Source of the DNA: Desulfosarcinaceae bacterium
GTDB lineage: Bacteria; Desulfobacterota; Desulfobacteria; Desulfobacterales; Desulfosarcinaceae
Length of the DNA: 64,000 nucleotides
Reading direction: 5' to 3'
Assembly (NCBI GenBank): GCA_030066015.1
Contig: JASJCL010000007.1
Coordinates: 1-64,000 of the forward strand
In this document: piece by piece, positions 52,455 through 62,095 of the stretch
Position numbering within the stretch: the first letter of the stretch is position 1
How the letters are laid out: every line of letters begins with the position of its first letter
Program-made: the position numbers and the translations under genes
Notes under the pieces: generated by a model
What the model was told of the DNA's origin: nothing
The model's database searches: none
The model's input: the letters and a program-made list of their open reading frames with translations, nothing else

Positions 52455-52509
52455 CGAAAATAAAATGCCACCGGAACAGGGCGTTGGGTCGAAGTCCTTT
52501 TCCGGTGGC
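52455..52509 (-). terminator. Rho-independent-type terminator of the selenoprotein gene
   Basis: GCCACCGGAA (52467-52476) and TTCCGGTGGC (52500-52509) form a perfect 10-bp stem with a 23-nt loop. In minus orientation they are followed by ATTTTATTTT. It starts 37 nt after the TGA at 52546, supporting a complete gene that is read to that stop. Confidence 0.7.
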
Positions 52510-52545
52510 AAGAAGGTGCAATCCGATGACGGCACCCTCTGGTGG

Positions 52546-52965
52546 TCAGGGAGCGGGTCTCATGGGATATCCTTTGGCTTCCCAGGCGGAAACGCCGCCT
52601 TTCAGCGCCTTTACGTTGCTATAACCTTTTGCCGCATATGTCTCTGCCAAACTGGCAGAAGTACCCTCGTTGGGTCATGCTCAGTAAAAGATTATCTCCT
52701 GCGTTTTCGGCAAGGTCGCAAGTTTGGATTCGAATTCACTGCGGAGCAGCGCCCCTTCGAACAACATGGTTTTGCATTTATCATCCGCGTATGAGCAGAC
52801 CAAAAGGGCCTCCCCGGCTTCGCTCTTTTTCATCGCTTCATCCGGGTTGATGCGATTCGTCTCGGCAACGGCCTTGGTGCTGCTCGCCATCAAGGGGCTG
52901 TACAACCCCACCGTGACAAGGAGCGAGAGCACAATTGCCAAAACGACCCATTTTGTTTTAGCCAT
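52546..52965 (-). CDS. Exported rhodanese-domain protein, probable selenoprotein with two UGA (Sec) codons
   Basis: Read with UGA as selenocysteine (U), the gene gives 139 residues. A signal or anchor (WVVLAIVLSLLVTVGLYSPL) is followed by a rhodanese domain from RINPDEAMKKSEAGEALLV to GYSNVKALKGGVSAWEAKGY. The active-site part reads EIIFY-U95-A-U97-PNEGTSASLA. Close rhodanese relatives have Y-C-x-C-P-N-E there, so both UGAs sit exactly on cysteine positions. The frame is intact on both sides, GGGAG precedes the ATG at 52965, and a terminator follows the final TGA. A perfect hairpin lies 16 nt after the second UGA. Without Sec insertion the product would end at residue 94 and lose its active site. 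Confidence 0.85.
52643..52659 (-). promoter_or_regulatory. Bacterial SECIS-like hairpin
   Basis: In the mRNA, UCUGCCA-GUU-UGGCAGA forms a perfect 7-bp stem with a 3-nt loop that starts GU. The loop G is the 23rd nucleotide after the second UGA and the 29th after the first. Bacterial SECIS elements recognised by SelB lie inside the coding region about this far from the UGA and carry a G/U at the loop start. The match supports Sec insertion. Confidence 0.7.
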
Positions 52966-53475
52966 AATCTTCTCCCTTCTGTTGTGTGATTGTAACGGCG
53001 CAATCCCATCAGACGCCCAATAGAAACCATTATCCAAATAATATTAAATCTATATGGGTGCAATGCAACCACCGGGCGGTCCTGATGGTTCGATTTCACT
53101 GTTGGTGGCGACCATGGGTCAACGGACAACGGTGGTGTCACGGCAGGTCGAAATTGGTGTATATCAGACACCTTACCAATTATCTGAAACAATAGCGGCC
53201 TCATTGCACATGACGTGGCGGTGGGAATAAACAATATTTTTATGCACATGTGTCACGATCCGGCCAGGGTGGCCATGATCGCCCATCATTCGGGCTACAC
53301 GATACCTAGCTCGGCGGTGGATCTGAGGTGGACCCATCACATGGATGATCTGGTGGGGGTGATCAGCTATAAGAAGTTCCATCGCCTCCAAATCTGCACT
53401 GTCGGCCGCATCTTCTTGATTGGCGCCAAATCCCATTGTATCTGACCACCCATTGCATCTATACTGTCCACCACG
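52966..53475. other. Intergenic region between the selenoprotein and 53476 genes
   Basis: About 510 nt. It holds divergent promoters. Frames of 76-87 codons on both strands around 53173-53445 lack ribosome sites and recognisable motifs, so I do not call genes here. Confidence 0.45.
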
Positions 53476-55210: not shown

Positions 55211-56800
55211 ATGCGAACCCAGTGCGCCATCAAGGAGCGGAAAGGCGGGAAGCTACCCTACTACATTCAACCAGCCACCTTTTTCTGGTCGTCGGCCATC
55301 ATCATCGGCTTCGTGGTGATCACCATCCCCTTGCAGCAGATTCTGGGGAAGGTGTTCTCCTCGATGATGAGCTTCTCCATGGAGTATCTCGGTTGGACGC
55401 TGGTGTTGGAGGTGAATCTCTTTCTGATTTACAGCATCTACCTGATGTTCAGCAAATATGCCCACGTGAGGATCGGCGGCAAGGACGCCGAGCCAGAATT
55501 CAGCAACGGCGCCTGGGTGTCCATGCTGTTCAGCGCCGGCCTGGGCATCGGCCTACTCTACTTCGGGGTAGCCGAACCCATGTACCACTTCATCGCCCCG
55601 CCCTTTGCCGAGGCGGGCACCAAGGATTCGGCCCTCTGGGGCCTCTCCATCACCTATCTCCACTGGGGCCTGCACGGTTGGGCCATCTTCGCCGTGGTGG
55701 GCCTGGGCCTGGCCTTCGCCACCTTCAACCGCGGTCTGCCCCTGACGGTGCGCACCGTTTTCTACCCCCTGCTGGGGGACCGCATCTACGGCCCCATCGG
55801 CAACACCATCGACATCGTAGCCACGGCTTGCACTCTCTTCGGGGTGGCCACCCCCCTGGGACTGGGCTCCCAGCAGATCAACGCCGGGCTCAACTATCTC
55901 TTTGGCATTCCCCAGAGCCCCTGGGTCCAGCTCATCCTCATCGCCATCATCACCTGCTTCGCGACGGTCTCGGTGGTCCTGGGGCTCAAGGCCGGCATCA
56001 AGCGTGTCAGTATCCTCAACATGAGCCTGGCGGCGACCCTCTTCTGCTTCGTTCTCATCGTGGGGCCGAGCCTCTTCGTCCTCAACCTCTTCATTGAAAG
56101 TGTGGGCCACTACCTGCAGAACTTCATCTTCCTCTCCACCTGGAGCGAGACCTTCACCGGCGGCACCTGGCAGAACGGCTGGACCTGCTTCTATTGGGCT
56201 TGGTGGATCTCCTGGGGGCCCTTCGTGGGCATGTTCATTGGCCGTATCTCTTACGGGCGTACCGTGCGGGAGTTCATCGGCGGCGTCCTCATTGTCCCCA
56301 CAGTACTGACCTTCATCTGGATGAGCCTCTTCGGCGGCAGCGCCATCTGGATCGAACTCTTCGGCAACGGTGGCATTGCCAAGGCGGTGCAGGAGAACAT
56401 CCCCTCCTCCTTTTTCGTCTTCCTGCAGCAGTTCCCCCTGGCGCCCTTGGCCTGCGGTCTCTCCCTGGTGGTGGTGACGGTCTTCTTCGTGACCTCCTCC
56501 GACTCGGGGTCCATGGTGATCGACATGATCACCGCCGGCGGGCACATCGATCCTCCCAAGCCCCAGCGCGTTTACTGGGCATCCATGGAGGGGATCGTGG
56601 CGGCCGCCCTGCTCTTCGGCGGCGGCCTGGTGGCCCTGCAGACCGCCACCACCCTGGTGGCCATCCCCTTCGGCTTCATCATCGTATTCATGTGCTGGAG
56701 TCTACAGAAAGGGCTGCAGGAGTTCGTCGAAGAGGAGGAAGAGGAACTGGCAGCCCAGGCCGGTCTGGACCCAGCGGCTGCCCAGACGGAGGCGGCCTGA
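55211..56800 (+). CDS. BCCT-family betaine/choline/carnitine transporter
   Basis: A 529-residue transporter with 12 transmembrane helices. BCCT signatures include NGAWVSMLFSAGLGIGLLYF, HWGLHGWAIFAVVGLG and the aromatic WWISWGPFVGMFIGRISYGR. TSSDSGSMVIDMITAGG follows near the end. It has an acidic C-terminal tail (EEEEEELAAQ-like) in place of the basic osmosensing tail seen in BetP, so its regulation may differ. TAAGGAGGAG precedes the ATG. Local GC is clearly higher than in the flanking genes. It is the first gene of a set with betaine- and taurine-type binding proteins. Confidence 0.95.
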   Translation: MRTQCAIKERKGGKLPYYIQPATFFWSSAIIIGFVVITIPLQQILGKVFSSMMSFSMEYLGWTLVLEVNLFLIYSIYLMFSKYAHVRIGGKDAEPEFSNGAWVSMLFSAGLGIGLLYFGVAEPMYHFIAPPFAEAGTKDSALWGLSITYLHWGLHGWAIFAVVGLGLAFATFNRGLPLTVRTVFYPLLGDRIYGPIGNTIDIVATACTLFGVATPLGLGSQQINAGLNYLFGIPQSPWVQLILIAIITCFATVSVVLGLKAGIKRVSILNMSLAATLFCFVLIVGPSLFVLNLFIESVGHYLQNFIFLSTWSETFTGGTWQNGWTCFYWAWWISWGPFVGMFIGRISYGRTVREFIGGVLIVPTVLTFIWMSLFGGSAIWIELFGNGGIAKAVQENIPSSFFVFLQQFPLAPLACGLSLVVVTVFFVTSSDSGSMVIDMITAGGHIDPPKPQRVYWASMEGIVAAALLFGGGLVALQTATTLVAIPFGFIIVFMCWSLQKGLQEFVEEEEEELAAQAGLDPAAAQTEAA

Positions 56801-56895
56801 GTGCCGACCCCATTTGCAGCTCGGCCTGAACCCGGCTGATGGTTAGGAACCACCGTGCTTAAACCTCAGATCCCGTTCAAGGAGAGGAGGCTCCC

Positions 56896-57810
56896 GTGGC
56901 CAGAAGATATAGCTCCCCGCACCACATCAGCTGCCTGATACTGGCACTGCTGTTCTGCCTCGCGGCAGCGCCGGCTCAGGCGCAGTCCCAATCCCTTAAA
57001 ATCGCCTACGAGGACTGGTCGTCCGAGATCGCCGCGGCCTATGTGATCAAGGCCGTCCTTAAAGAGCGGCTGAAATATCAGGTAACCCTCACGCGCATGG
57101 GGCTCACCGAAACTTACGAGGCCCTCGCCGACGGCAGCCAGGACGCCATGATCGGCGCCTGGCTGCCCAGCCAGAAACCCTACTATGAGCGCTTCCAGGG
57201 TCAGTTCGAGGATTTAGGGCCCAACCTGGAGAACGCCCGTCTGGGGCTGGTGGTGCCCAACATCGCCACCAAACGCCAGCTCGCCGAGAACGCCATGAGC
57301 ACCGGGCACAACATCACCATCGATTCCATCGGCCAGCTCAAGGACCATGTGGACGCCTTCGAGGGCCGCATTATCGGCATCGAGACCGATTCAGGCATGA
57401 TGCGGACCATGCGCGACCGCCTGATTCCCGCCTATGGGTTGGAGGCGTTCGAGCTGATCCCCGGCACCGAGGTCTCCATGCTGGCCGAACTGGCCAATGC
57501 CATCAAGCACAACCGCTGGATCGTGGTCCTGGGCTGGGAACCCAGCTGGAAGTTCACCCGCTGGTCGCTGAAATTTCTGGACGATCCCAAGGGGATCTGG
57601 GGCGGCCCCGCCAGCATTCACACGATCACGCGCAACGGCCTGAAGGCGGACCTGCCCCCGGCGGTTTTCAAGCTTCTCGATCAGTTCTACTGGACCCCGG
57701 ACCAGCTGGGCTCGCTCCTCCTATGGAACGAGATGGGGGGCGATCCGTACAGTAACGCTAGAAGATGGATGCGCGCACACAAAGATTTGGTGGACGCCTG
57801 GCTCAAATAA
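56896..57810 (+). CDS. OpuAC/ProX-like glycine betaine-type solute-binding protein
   Basis: A 304-residue exported protein. A signal peptide (LILALLFCLAAAPAQAQ) is followed by the OpuAC fold (LKIAYEDWSSEIAAAYVIKA; DGSQDAMIGAWLPSQKPYYE; IGIETDSGMMRTMRD). Several Trp/Tyr residues could form the aromatic cage for a quaternary amine. The GTG at 56896 follows GAGGAGG. There is no ABC permease or ATPase nearby, so it may feed a distant transporter or hand substrate to the BCCT gene product. It lies 95 nt after the BCCT gene. Confidence 0.92.
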   Translation: MARRYSSPHHISCLILALLFCLAAAPAQAQSQSLKIAYEDWSSEIAAAYVIKAVLKERLKYQVTLTRMGLTETYEALADGSQDAMIGAWLPSQKPYYERFQGQFEDLGPNLENARLGLVVPNIATKRQLAENAMSTGHNITIDSIGQLKDHVDAFEGRIIGIETDSGMMRTMRDRLIPAYGLEAFELIPGTEVSMLAELANAIKHNRWIVVLGWEPSWKFTRWSLKFLDDPKGIWGGPASIHTITRNGLKADLPPAVFKLLDQFYWTPDQLGSLLLWNEMGGDPYSNARRWMRAHKDLVDAWLK

Positions 57811-57851
57811 GCCCTTCAACCCCCAACCGGAAGCGCCAAAGGAGGCGAGAC

Positions 57852-58307
57852 ATGTTTGAGTGTAAATCGATTATGGTGCCCACCGACTTCAGCGAATATG
57901 CCGACCTGGCCCTGGTGGATGCCCTGGGCCTGGCCGAACGCTGCGAAGGGATGATTTATCTGGTTCACGTCATCCGGGAGGTTCCCAAGGCCTTCAAACC
58001 CAACGAATTTTATGAAGCACAGAAACCAGTGGCCATGAAGGCCCTGGAAGAACAGATCGCCAAATTCGACATCCCCGCCGGCGTGACCATCGAACCCGTG
58101 GTGCGCACCGGCCGCGTGGCCACCACCCTGCTCCAGTATCAGAAGAAGATCCGGGCCAATATCGTGGTGGTGACCACCCAGGGGCAGACCGCCTTCGAGG
58201 ATTTTCTCGTGGGCAGCACGGCCCGGCGCCTCATGCGCCACAGCACCTGCTCGGTCTTGGTGGTGCGCAAACCCAAGTACAGAAAGAAGTGGCAGTATTC
58301 TGGGTGA
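57852..58307 (+). CDS. Universal stress protein (UspA family)
   Basis: A 151-residue single-domain UspA protein. The N-terminal strand and loop are SIMVPTDFSEYADLALVDAL. The nucleotide-binding end reads FLVGSTARRLMRHSTCSVLV, close to G-x2-G-x9-G-S/T. AAAGGAGG is at ideal distance from the ATG. It sits between two binding-protein genes in the uptake set. UspA domains are often linked to transporters as nucleotide sensors, so control of uptake by energy state is a fair guess. Confidence 0.93.
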   Translation: MFECKSIMVPTDFSEYADLALVDALGLAERCEGMIYLVHVIREVPKAFKPNEFYEAQKPVAMKALEEQIAKFDIPAGVTIEPVVRTGRVATTLLQYQKKIRANIVVVTTQGQTAFEDFLVGSTARRLMRHSTCSVLVVRKPKYRKKWQYSG

Positions 58308-58371
58308 CTTCTGAATTTCATTGGAACCTTATTCGGCTGAGGCTTGAAATGCCGGCGACGGGGAAGCCATC

Positions 58372-59394
58372 ATGAAGAAAATCTACTGGTTCACATTCGT
58401 ATGGATCTGCCTGCTGGCCGTGGTCGCTCTGGGGCCGCGGTCGGGGCATGCTGCCAAGGCGGCCGAGACCCTCAAGGTGGCCTACTTCCCTGGCTGGCCG
58501 GGGGCCTTTCAGGTGGGCTGGGCCAATGGCTGGTTCGAGGAGGCCCTAGGGATGCGGGTCGACTTTCGGGAGTTCGACACCGGGGCCCAGATCACGACCG
58601 CCATGGCCTCGGGGGACGTTCAGATCGCCTATGCCCTGGGAACCATCCCCCTCTGCGCGGCCGTCTCCCAGGGGCTGGACCTGCGCATGGTGGCCATCTC
58701 GGAGATTTACAACGACGCCGAAAACCTGGTGGTGCGCCTCAAGGCGGGCATCAACCACCCCCGCGACCTCATCGGCAAGAAACTTGCCGTGCCCTACGGC
58801 ACCACGGCCCACTACCGCCTGCTGGGGATCCTCAACATGTTCGATATCCGTGAAGACCAGGTCCGGATCTTTGATATGCCAGGCATGGAGATGGTGGCTG
58901 CCTTCCAGCGGCGCGACATCGACGGCGGCTGCACCTGGGAGCCCACCCTCTCACGTATGCTGGAGCACGGCGGCAAGACCTTGGTGTCGCCCTTCATGCA
59001 GGTGGTGGCGGGGTACGCCACCTACGGGACGGTGAGTGTTACCGGTCATTTTGCCGAGACCCAGGCGGTTTTGCTCGCTAAATTTCTGCAGGTCGTGGAC
59101 CGCTCGATTCGCTATCTGCGCGTCCATCCCGACGAGGCGATTCCCCTTATCGCCACCAAGGCCGGTCTGGATCCCAAGAAGACCGACGCCATCATCAAGG
59201 AGATGGGGTTTATCACACTGGCCGAACAGCTGACCCCGGCCTGGCTGGGAACGCCAGAGCGCGGCGGCAGCGTGGAGACCCACCTCAAAAACGTGGCCGA
59301 GTTTCTGGTCAGCCGCCGCAATATCGACAAGGCCCTGCCCAGCTACGGGCATGTCATCGCACCCCAATTTGCCATGGGCCTGGTGTCGCCCTGA
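58372..59394 (+). CDS. TauA/SsuA-like (NMT1 family) solute-binding protein
   Basis: A 340-residue exported protein. A signal peptide ends near GHAAKAAE. The binding domain is of the taurine/nitrate/sulfonate class (LKVAYFPGWPGAFQVGWANG; FREFDTGAQITTAMASGDVQ; GGCTWEPTLSRML). It is 64 nt after uspA and is the last gene before a strong terminator. TauB and TauC partners are missing. Together with BCCT and the OpuAC-like protein it suggests scavenging of taurine and betaine, both possible carbon, sulfur or methyl sources. Confidence 0.9.
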   Translation: MKKIYWFTFVWICLLAVVALGPRSGHAAKAAETLKVAYFPGWPGAFQVGWANGWFEEALGMRVDFREFDTGAQITTAMASGDVQIAYALGTIPLCAAVSQGLDLRMVAISEIYNDAENLVVRLKAGINHPRDLIGKKLAVPYGTTAHYRLLGILNMFDIREDQVRIFDMPGMEMVAAFQRRDIDGGCTWEPTLSRMLEHGGKTLVSPFMQVVAGYATYGTVSVTGHFAETQAVLLAKFLQVVDRSIRYLRVHPDEAIPLIATKAGLDPKKTDAIIKEMGFITLAEQLTPAWLGTPERGGSVETHLKNVAEFLVSRRNIDKALPSYGHVIAPQFAMGLVSP

Positions 59395-59624: not shown

Positions 59625-61955
59625 CTAAATGTATAAGAGAATAAAAATTCCAATAGCAGTAAAAAAATAAAGCGGCTGAACCACGCGGCCGATCATTTCG
59701 AGTCTTTTTACCAGCAATTCTCTCCCCCGGAGATATGCCACAAGTACGGCGACAGAAATGATAATTCCTGAGAGGAGGAGGGCATAGGTGGCAAAATAGA
59801 TATAGTCCAGCGCGACGAGATACCCGATATCCGGTAGCTGGCTGGAGGCTCTTACGCTCAATATGATGGCTGTCAGAAGCGCTGTAACGCCCAGGTTCAT
59901 CCGTGCCACAAACGGTGGCCCCTGGGGAGGGACGAAGAGCATAGCGTACCCGAGTAAAATTATGATAAACAGTGGGATTAGATTACTGAGTACATAGTTC
60001 TTTGCATTCCTTTTAATCTCGGTGACGACGTTGAAGCGAGAGTAGTCTATATCGGTGTCTGCTGTGTCATGAAACATCTGCGGATTGCCGAGGGTCGAAT
60101 CGGTGGCACTGATGTCTGAAAAAACCATCACATTTTGCAAATGCCATTCTCCCTCAGTGTGAATGATGGGATGCCCCTTGGGATTCTCCATTAGTTGAGG
60201 ATCGCCATTTTGCTGCATGCCGATATCATCTGCCACAAATAAGAGGTCGTTATTGTTGCGCCTTTTATGACGTAAACGGATATTCAACTTCTGTGAGTCG
60301 AAGGGATAGTCTCGAAAATTAAACTCTTCCTGGAAATCCCCTTTAATTCTATAGGAGCTGTGTGAAATATCATCAATTCTCATTTTCATGATGGGATCAC
60401 TGAGGTGAATGGCTCCCACGGCATTTGGGAATTCAATTTTGCTATAATCAAGGGATTCTGTGTGTCTGAACCACAAGTAAAAATCCACACTGAAAGTTCC
60501 ACTTCTTGGATCGATATTGCTGATCTCATTGATGTCTATTCCTGTATAAACGATCGTGGTTTTGTACATAAAGTGATCATCCAGGGCGAGAATCCTTCCC
60601 TCTTCCATCTTCTTGTGAAAATCGATGATGGCGTCGATGTTGACGATCGGCTTGAGTTGGACAGGGGCTGAGATCAGCTTGCCCTGCAAATAAACACCGA
60701 AAGGGCATGTCTTCATAGCATTGCCGTGTTCATCAAAATAGATGCGACCGGTAACACCTTTGTGGGCATTTTCAACGTTCCTGAAAGTCGTTAACTGATT
60801 GCGGACACGTTCACGGCTCTGGGTTAGATCGCCCTTCGGCTTTGCCCTTTTGATGGCCTCAATAACAACTGATGCCGCATCATAACTCGTGGCAGCCATG
60901 TCATCGGGTTCTCTGCCGTAATGGCGCTTAAATGCATATTCGAATTCCTGCGCAGTAAAGTTACCGATATCGCGTATAAAAAATGTGGTGGCGTAAATAC
61001 CATCGGCGTAATGGCCGTCGCCTCTCTTTCTGGGAGAAATACCTTCAAATATCCTGGGAAATGATTCTGATCCGATCGCATCTCCACCGACGATCGTGAG
61101 GCCCAAGCCTTCGTCGCGAATTAGACGGACAAGCTTGGCGGCTTCATGATCCTGGAGAGCTAGAAACAAGGCCCCAGGCTTGGTGTCCTCTTGCACGTCA
61201 TGCGTGATCTTCTCGAATATGGTGTCGATATCACCGGTCTCTGTGTCAATCGCCCAAACGTTTTGGATTTGAAGCCCAAGGTTACGGGCAGTGCGCGTGT
61301 ATGACCGTTGCAGCGCAGAGCCGTAAACGTCCTGTTCATACACAATGGATACCTTGTCCTGATGAAGTATCGCCTTGGTATAAATGGCCGCGAATTTTCC
61401 TTGACGATTTGTATCGGGGACAATGCGAAAGTACCAATTGTTTCCTTCGGTTACCTCAGAAGCGGTTGCGCTTGATGTGACTGCTGGAATTCCATTTTGC
61501 TGGTAAATCCTTCCGCCCTCAACAGAGGTCGAACTGTAGTAATGACCAATCACGGCCAAGGCGTTGCTTTCTCTGGCGATCGCAACAGCCTGTTCGCGCG
61601 CAATTTTCTTATTGTTTTGATCGTCGTATGCGAGGACCTCTACTTTTCTGCCACGAATACCACCGCTTTCATTGATCTGTGCAACACATAGCTTCACCCC
61701 ATCCAGCATCGCCCGGCCTGCGGTGTGGTCTTTTCCGGACAGGGGGCCGATAACGGCTATCTGGATCGTGTCGTTACCCGCACACGCACTGAATGAAAGT
61801 ATCAGGCCTACAGCAGCGATAGCGAATAATGACTTGCCGTTGCGGCATACCCGTGACCCTTTCAACGCGAATAGCACTGCGCTGATGTTGTTCGGACAGA
61901 GGGTGCCCACAGCCTGCTGGAAAAATCGCCTCGGTGGTCCTAGTAGTGCAGACAT
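59625..61955 (-). CDS. Periplasmic-binding-protein / pentameric ligand-gated ion channel fusion
   Basis: About 776 residues from the ATG at 61955. A lipobox-like signal (LILSFSAC) is followed by a Leu/Ile/Val-type binding domain (IQIAVIGPLSGKDHTAGRAM; residues about 60-455). The pLGIC extracellular domain (about 463-652) has the Pro-loop FNFRDYPFDSQKLNIRL. The four-helix pore is complete: M1 from NYVLSNLIPLF, M2 RMNLGVTALLTAIILSV, M3 ending VAVLVAYL, and M4 at the C-terminus. The binding domain probably gates or tunes a cation- or anion-selective pore. The true start is uncertain: the signal fits better if translation begins at a TTG near 61865. Confidence 0.9.
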   Translation of the reverse strand: MSALLGPPRRFFQQAVGTLCPNNISAVLFALKGSRVCRNGKSLFAIAAVGLILSFSACAGNDTIQIAVIGPLSGKDHTAGRAMLDGVKLCVAQINESGGIRGRKVEVLAYDDQNNKKIAREQAVAIARESNALAVIGHYYSSTSVEGGRIYQQNGIPAVTSSATASEVTEGNNWYFRIVPDTNRQGKFAAIYTKAILHQDKVSIVYEQDVYGSALQRSYTRTARNLGLQIQNVWAIDTETGDIDTIFEKITHDVQEDTKPGALFLALQDHEAAKLVRLIRDEGLGLTIVGGDAIGSESFPRIFEGISPRKRGDGHYADGIYATTFFIRDIGNFTAQEFEYAFKRHYGREPDDMAATSYDAASVVIEAIKRAKPKGDLTQSRERVRNQLTTFRNVENAHKGVTGRIYFDEHGNAMKTCPFGVYLQGKLISAPVQLKPIVNIDAIIDFHKKMEEGRILALDDHFMYKTTIVYTGIDINEISNIDPRSGTFSVDFYLWFRHTESLDYSKIEFPNAVGAIHLSDPIMKMRIDDISHSSYRIKGDFQEEFNFRDYPFDSQKLNIRLRHKRRNNNDLLFVADDIGMQQNGDPQLMENPKGHPIIHTEGEWHLQNVMVFSDISATDSTLGNPQMFHDTADTDIDYSRFNVVTEIKRNAKNYVLSNLIPLFIIILLGYAMLFVPPQGPPFVARMNLGVTALLTAIILSVRASSQLPDIGYLVALDYIYFATYALLLSGIIISVAVLVAYLRGRELLVKRLEMIGRVVQPLYFFTAIGIFILLYI

Positions 61956-62095
61956 AGCGATGACCCACTTCTCTTTTCGCCGCCATTTAAGGCGGTTTGT
62001 CAAATTCGAGCCGAGCCATTGACGATAGCCTGATCATATAAAAGAGCGACCTCCCCCTGGCGATGCTGCAACAGTAGTGATGCGGGCCCAAATCC

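Follow-up and report, generated by a model that had tools for sequence, protein, structure and literature searches.

A probable double-selenocysteine rhodanese with a U-x-U active-site loop encoded in a Desulfosarcinaceae genome

Introduction

A 64,000-nucleotide stretch of contig JASJCL010000007.1 (positions 1 to 64,000; hereafter the window), from the Desulfosarcinaceae bacterium assembly GCA_030066015.1, carries on its minus strand a small rhodanese-like gene containing two UGA codons separated by a single codon. This raises the question of whether both codons are read as selenocysteine (Sec, U), and what a rhodanese would gain from a U-x-U active site. Selenocysteine is costly and bacterial UGA read-through is inefficient, so two UGA codons six nucleotides apart in one small gene represent an extreme case. 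We conclude that the gene very probably encodes a small rhodanese-family selenoprotein, probably exported, with two Sec residues in a U-x-U active-site loop, as both UGA codons lie in-frame within a conserved domain, the Sec apparatus is present in the genome, and a conserved hairpin occupies a fixed place downstream.

Gene structure and selenocysteine machinery

The open reading frame at 52965-52546 (minus strand) starts with ATG and, read through two in-frame UGA codons, encodes 139 residues followed by a TGA stop at 52548-52546, near which many homologues also end. An earlier note made from the sequence had described a complete gene with two in-frame UGA codons, a normal rhodanese C-terminus and a TGA stop, and this description holds. 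The first UGA (TGA 52683-52681) corresponds to residue 95, which aligns with the catalytic Cys position of rhodaneses, and the second (TGA 52677-52675) to residue 97, as assigned by alignment with relatives; the two residues are found in the context F-Y-U-A-U-P-N-E-G-T-S-A. A Shine-Dalgarno-like GAAGGGAG lies at 52972-52979 on the same strand. With U treated as Cys, the product matches Pfam Rhodanese PF00581 at 32.2 bits against a cut-off of 22.2, over residues 77-131.

Codons 1-28 (52882-52965) encode a positively charged and then hydrophobic N-terminus, which was flagged by a screen for leader-like sequences and shows low pLDDT. It may serve as a signal peptide or anchor, and this hydrophobic segment is the one feature indicating that the protein is probably exported or located in the envelope. 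L029, L030 and L031, which head the remaining matches of the order search, have a comparable N-terminus. The screen also flagged L164 and L186, in which the stretch may precede the true start.

Downstream of the gene, a terminator-like element at 52457-52510 (minus strand) consists of two 11-base arms (52510-52500 and 52476-52466) enclosing a 23-base loop, followed by TTTTATTTT. The terminator claimed in the earlier note is therefore visible by reading, but it is absent from the output of the terminator scan, the rule of which admits loops of 3-8 bases only. The next ORF downstream, on the same strand, is GT87-like (23.1 bits, below the cut-off of 25), and the ORF upstream, on the opposite strand, has no Pfam match, so that the gene looks monocistronic. 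Clustering of flanking ORFs across the loci of relatives revealed no conserved operon and no neighbour that names a substrate or a reductant; the largest cluster (10 loci) corresponds to the cytochrome segment of fused genes, the others being lineage-specific neighbours or frame-shadow ORFs.

The source assembly (155 contigs, 5.73 Mb, 96.6% complete) encodes tRNA-Sec (73.4 bits), selB (363), selA (608) and selD (370), each above its curated cut-off. Absence of this machinery had been named beforehand as a finding that would speak against a selenoprotein. Use of UGA as a general sense codon is rejected on two grounds: TGA is also the stop of this gene, and the genome encodes tRNA-Sec, SelA, SelB and SelD.

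Further Sec-related genes were observed in the same genome. The selD gene (L023, G000:C94:14023-14946) contains an in-frame TGA, suggesting that SelD is probably a selenoprotein as well. A paralogue (L010, G000:C81:27533-27901) carries the motif C-A-U and scores as a member of NF041203 at 168 bits; a permease-like ORF, recognized by eye, precedes it on the same strand and also occurs near L198, L200, L204 and L206. A Sec rhodanese of another type (L012, G000:C107:30478-30639) has Sec at the catalytic position in V-Y-U-A-I-G-G-R-S and is fused to a rubrerythrin domain (43 bits, cut-off 22.8).

Overall fold and the active-site loop

A structure model built from 60 aligned sequences revealed a confident domain from about residue 38-41 onwards, with pLDDT of 92-98 in ten-residue blocks, and low values for residues ~1-37. 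The rhodanese domain, delimited by the Pfam match, the model and the fold matches, comprises residues ~38-136 (52558-52854). Strand 90-94 leads into the U-x-U loop, which is followed by helix 101-112, the pLDDT of the blocks in this region being 95-97. A Foldseek search against the PDB gave rhodanese domains as the best matches, including persulfide reductases and persulfide dioxygenases with a rhodanese domain; a few titles among the first fifty do not mention such a domain. The fold and the place of the catalytic residue are shared with GlpE (1gmx), YgaP (5hbo, 2mrm) and the Francisella protein 6mxv. However, these proteins have Cys instead of Sec, and the aligned loop of 6mxv is two residues shorter and lacks a second Cys or Sec.

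In the profile alignment, the first Cys/Sec of the family falls on the FYC/YC of solved rhodaneses, placing U95 at the catalytic position, and the family loop is two residues longer than that of known rhodaneses. The usual rhodanese active-site loop has six residues, C-x4-R/K. In contrast, the loop U-A-U-P-N-E-G-T of the window protein is two residues longer, has no Arg or Lys and does not fit the C-x4-R/K pattern. With the usual Arg/Lys absent, even sulfur transfer would be no more than a possible activity.

A second distinctive site was found at the end of a strand, where Cys57 (52795-52797) stands within a V-C-x-Y motif in place of the usual D-x-R. A regular expression found V-C-x-Y in 76 of the 174 UxU and CxU relatives. 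Judging from the fold, Cys57 is probably a third conserved chalcogen residue near the active site. The V-C-x-Y subfamily to which the window protein belongs separates from four D-x-R outgroup rows with support of 100/100.

The closest known family is NF041203, rhodanese_LYCAU, listed as form 3 (CxU) in Table 1 of PMC13188914, and the earlier remark that single-Sec rhodaneses are already known is correct in this respect. NF041203 and the window protein have in common the rhodanese domain and the register of the SECIS element. The NF041203 loop is C-x-U, often followed by P-N-E, and is listed with one Sec, whereas the window protein has two. The window protein scores 71.1 bits, below the curated cut-off of 115, and lacks the single-Sec C-x-U motif; by sequence it is placed in a subfamily related to NF041203 but below its cut-off. 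Two members of NF041203 by score, L056 and L092, turn out to be UxU. NF045694, TsoB, resembles a rhodanese/DsbD fusion and likewise combines a rhodanese-type protein with two Sec residues, but its model spans 572 positions, its spacing is UxxxxU, and the window protein scores only 21.1 bits against a cut-off of 805. The Prx-like thiol:disulfide oxidoreductase with UxxU and other two-Sec families in Table 1 of PMC13188914 also have two close Sec residues that may form a diselenide, but their folds and spacing, as given there, are unlike those of the window protein.

In Table 1 of this 2026 inventory of prokaryotic selenoproteins, the UxU motif is absent and the two-Sec rhodanese is TsoB with UxxxxU; the paper contains no match for the UxU term. 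The literature searched yielded no report of a U-x-U rhodanese; outside that set, Haft and Tolstoy (2025), the study of the Olavius symbiont by Zhang and Gladyshev (2007) or Deng et al. (2026) could mention one.

Proposed catalytic mechanism

The catalytic Cys of rhodaneses forms a persulfide, which a second chalcogen two residues away could resolve. As the resolving residue here would be Sec as well, the resolved form would be a diselenide. We propose, with somewhat less than even confidence, that the window protein reduces sulfane sulfur in three steps. Sec95 at the catalytic position would take up sulfane sulfur as an Se-S(-) adduct. Sec97 would then resolve this adduct, releasing sulfide and closing an Se-Se bond (Se-S in the CxU relatives). 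Finally, an electron donor in the envelope would reopen the Se-Se bond. The net role would be that of a persulfide- or polysulfide-type reductase and not that of a plain sulfur transferase. The suggestion of the earlier note, a seleno-persulfide or diselenide carrier in the cell envelope, is plausible.

Fusions of UxU rhodaneses to other domains suggest redox partners. In ten loci (L072, L073, L075, L079, L094, L102, L116, L121, L169 and L174) the UxU rhodanese is followed in-frame by a shared multihaem cytochrome c part, confirmed with Pfam in L072 and L102, which points to electron transfer. The cytochrome fusions that were scanned are of the D-x-R type, outside the window subfamily. The CxU relative L242 contains the beginning of a cytochrome fusion, its cytochrome matches being weak and partly below cut-off. 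In L163 the UxU rhodanese is fused to a YHS-like part (28.7 bits, below the cut-off of 30.3); of the fusions, only L163 and its sister L089 fall within the window subfamily. Two other architectures were observed: a UxU rhodanese fused to a guanylate cyclase domain (L159, 3313-4311), and one joined to cohesin, to HEAT repeats and to an AhpC-like start that scores below threshold (L154, 2008-3636).

A second reading is a protein that has little part in sulfur transfer and uses U-x-U as a redox pair, acting as a thiol/diselenide oxidoreductase or peroxidase. We regard this as a serious possibility, though short of probable. The lengthened loop without the rhodanese Arg/Lys, the likeness of CxU and UxU to a redox pair, the cytochrome fusions and the fusion of a Sec rhodanese of another type to rubrerythrin in the source genome all point in this direction, while retention of the rhodanese fold and of the catalytic-Cys position argues against it. 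A third function, that of a plain selenium or sulfur carrier in which Se or S would be kept on Sec95 in a stable adduct and then handed on, is unlikely. Such a role has been proposed for some rhodaneses and would agree with the fold; however, the repeated occurrence of another Sec two positions on is more in keeping with a resolving step than with storage of a stable adduct, and the window protein probably leaves the cytosol, where SelD is expected to reside.

The SECIS-like hairpin

A bSECIS-like hairpin is located at 52642-52660 (minus strand), as delineated by covariation, a synonymous null and folding. Its stem pairs 52660-52654 with 52648-52642, the outermost pair being U-G, and encloses a five-base loop at 52653-52649. 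With one more pair formed, the loop is GUU (52652-52650); the perfect 7-bp GUU-loop hairpin at 52659-52643 is the one that had been noticed earlier at SECIS distance, and its register is conserved in relatives. Numbered from the first base of UGA-1, positions 23-29 pair with 41-35 and the five-base loop begins at 30, that is 21 nt past UGA-2 and 27 nt past UGA-1. The bSECIS features given in PMC13188914 are a loop of 3-9 nt with G in the first two places, a stem of 4-16 bp, a distance of 16-37 nt from the UGA and an MFE <= -7.5. The window hairpin agrees with these values, its constrained 37-nt fold having -11.5 kcal/mol. Taken alone it is moderately unusual (z -1.94 for a 71-nt stretch), and 124 of 20,000 synonymous resamplings of the gene match it.

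Comparison with relatives gave a much sharper picture. Five or more of the six pairs (G-U allowed) form at register i+j=64, numbered as above, in 100/106 UxU and 65/68 CxU genes, the next best register being found in 30 UxU and 13 CxU genes. When an xG[GU] loop is required in addition, 99/106 UxU and 64/68 CxU genes remain, compared with means of 15.0 (maximum 27) and 7.3 (maximum 15) under synonymous recoding. The idea that the hairpin is a by-product of the protein sequence is rejected for the family by this null. The pairs 23-41, 26-38 and 29-35 each join two wobble positions. Watson-Crick pairing at 26-38 occurs in 98/106 UxU genes (shuffled mean 39.8, maximum 57) and 63/68 CxU genes (31.5, maximum 44), at 29-35 in 105/106 (71.8, maximum 81) and 67/68 (51.8, maximum 59), and at 23-41 in 56/106 (29.7, maximum 42) and 32/68 (19.6, maximum 30). 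Pair 24-40 is weak (43/106 UxU, shuffled maximum 43; 25/68 CxU, maximum 24), and any excess over the shuffles is absent or slight for the outer pair 20-44 and for the inner pair 30-34. In a smaller set (82 + 35 genes), 26-38 is the top-ranking one of 120 tested wobble pairs in each group. The Gly at codon 11 is encoded by GGT in 74/76. Because of kinship among the rows, the shuffles exaggerate significance; firmer evidence comes from the pairs that join two wobble positions and from the use of one register. The register is also present in two of four CxC rows, a number too small for a real control. In one C-A-C relative (L057, 334-564) the SECIS-like hairpin is kept at the same register, as if Cys had replaced Sec recently.

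A scan of registers i+j 40-99 in the 106 UxU and 68 CxU genes revealed no second common hairpin for UGA-1. With the register shared by the UxU and CxU sets and no further hairpin common among them, one SECIS element appears to serve both UGA codons, which is the simplest reading. SelB bound to this single hairpin would decode the two codons successively, the apical loop being 27 nt from UGA-1 and 21 nt from UGA-2. The upper hairpin of E. coli fdhF lies 11 nt from its UGA, according to PMC8659212, whereas the window stem starts 14 nt past UGA-2 and 20 nt past UGA-1, with the well-conserved pairs 2 nt further on. UGA-1 may therefore be read poorly.

This distance bears on a more restrictive account, in which only UGA-2 is decoded efficiently and UGA-1 acts as a slow, leaky or regulatory stop, so that a fragment of 94 residues would dominate and the complete protein would be made only under ample selenium supply. 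As the register is identical in CxU and UxU genes, the hairpin may be tuned to UGA-2, with UGA-1 6 nt farther away, and UxU is the minority form (7 of the 44 order matches listed). However, 27 nt falls inside the published 16-37 nt range as given in PMC13188914, and a tree clade of 23 rows that are all UxU (98/85) suggests long retention, although most of these rows were picked by the UxU pattern. We consider this account improbable and keep to insertion of Sec at both codons.

Distribution and phylogeny

The order search matched 41 of 291 genomes at E <= 1e-10. Among the 44 order matches listed, which include two from the source genome and a pair (L051, L053) identical over the compared stretch, 36 are CxU, seven UxU, one CxC and none UxC. 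The best 30 loci of the phylum search (alignment A1) comprise 27 CxU, three UxU (one being the window gene itself) and no UxC; in total 234 of 395 genomes gave matches, probably including ordinary rhodaneses. Cys or UGA thus occupies both positions in the relatives. The earlier note had expected Y-C-x-C-P-N-E there; the positions are exactly those predicted, but the relatives are mostly C-x-U and not C-x-C.

A scan for UGA-x-UGA anchored on conserved codons, covering one genome per species for 84,980 species, found 107 stretches, of which 102 contain a UxU rhodanese ORF by motif and profile. The other five failed this filter (L085 and L107, which are chance matches, and L160, L170 and L173). 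The 202 candidates were reduced to 178 rows by a score filter and removal of identical 90-base stretches. Eighteen loci had been fetched for having no stop, 15 of which failed the motif and profile filter; of a further 18 fetched loci, 11 were dropped as identical to existing rows or failing the filter. The 106 UxU genes remaining after deduplication are enriched by design, 102 coming from a pattern that finds nothing else. Recurrence of the double UGA at the same two codons in 102 other loci, some from the same bin or close kin, makes a sequencing error unlikely; with downstream protein and RNA structure conserved in the window gene too, an error, a pseudogene or a chance ORF is hardly credible, even though the nearest relative, L029, is CxU.

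By NCBI names the 106 UxU genes span eleven phyla: 38 Thermodesulfobacteriota, 15 Nitrospirota, 14 Myxococcota (those inspected being titled Deltaproteobacteria bacterium), 10 Chloroflexota, 8 Methylomirabilota, 4 Planctomycetota, 2 Armatimonadota and one each of Nitrospinota, Fidelibacterota, Poribacteria and Binatota, with 11 lacking a phylum. These rows are mostly metagenome bins, so individual assignments can be wrong; the Fidelibacterota row, which falls among Desulfobacteraceae in the tree, is an example of possible misassignment. A clear cultured carrier is Desulfospira joergensenii DSM 10085 (L123). The UxU rhodanese recurs widely across many distantly related, mostly uncultured bacteria, as a probable double-Sec version of an established single-Sec family.

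The tree of all rows, based on few columns and with many unresolved forks, gives 23 UxU/CxU changes, or 24 when UxU is set against all other rows, of which at least four are forced by supported branches. In the subfamily tree (85 rows, four of them outgroup, and 110 columns), the sister of the window protein is L029, which is CxU (99/88). L030 and L031, which branch off next, are CxU too, in a poorly supported grouping (93/61 and 86/0). The all-UxU clade mentioned above carries the names Nitrospirota, Planctomycetota, Methylomirabilota and Desulfobacteraceae, and its CxU members may be unsampled owing to the selection of its rows. This tree contains 10 state changes, at least three being forced by supported branches. 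With 10 changes and the window protein beside CxU rows, the window gene probably represents its own CxU/UxU switch. The CxU neighbours suggest a gain of Sec, the tree itself being silent on gain versus loss. The occurrence of CxU and UxU without UxC (none among the 44 order matches listed, none in the best 30 phylum loci) would mean that Sec arises first at the resolving position and then at the catalytic one.

A wider generalization is possible but doubtful: the U-x-U rhodaneses may form a recurrent double-Sec class in which a single SECIS element, fixed in register, directs Sec insertion at two successive sites six nucleotides apart, and a loop diselenide couples the reduction of sulfane sulfur to envelope electron carriers, including fused multihaem cytochromes in some lineages. 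Natural C-x-U and U-x-U pairs matched in hairpin register make the spacing tolerance of SelB and SECIS directly testable; the family also poses the question of which chemistry a diselenide would carry out inside a rhodanese loop. The UxU genes would presumably be truncated by annotation that allows for one Sec or calls a stop.

Other genes in the window

Two further regions of the window were observed. The ORF at 59625-62003 (minus strand) encodes a 792-residue protein in which a periplasmic ligand-binding domain (PF13458, 153 bits) precedes a stretch similar to the transmembrane parts of neurotransmitter-gated channels (PF02932, 25.6 bits, just below the cut-off of 28.1); it may be a bacterial ligand-gated channel whose sensor is LivJ-like. 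On the plus strand, 55211-59391 encodes consecutively a BCCT betaine/choline transporter, an OpuAC substrate-binding protein, a universal stress protein and an NMT1-like binding protein, perhaps constituting an osmolyte uptake cluster.
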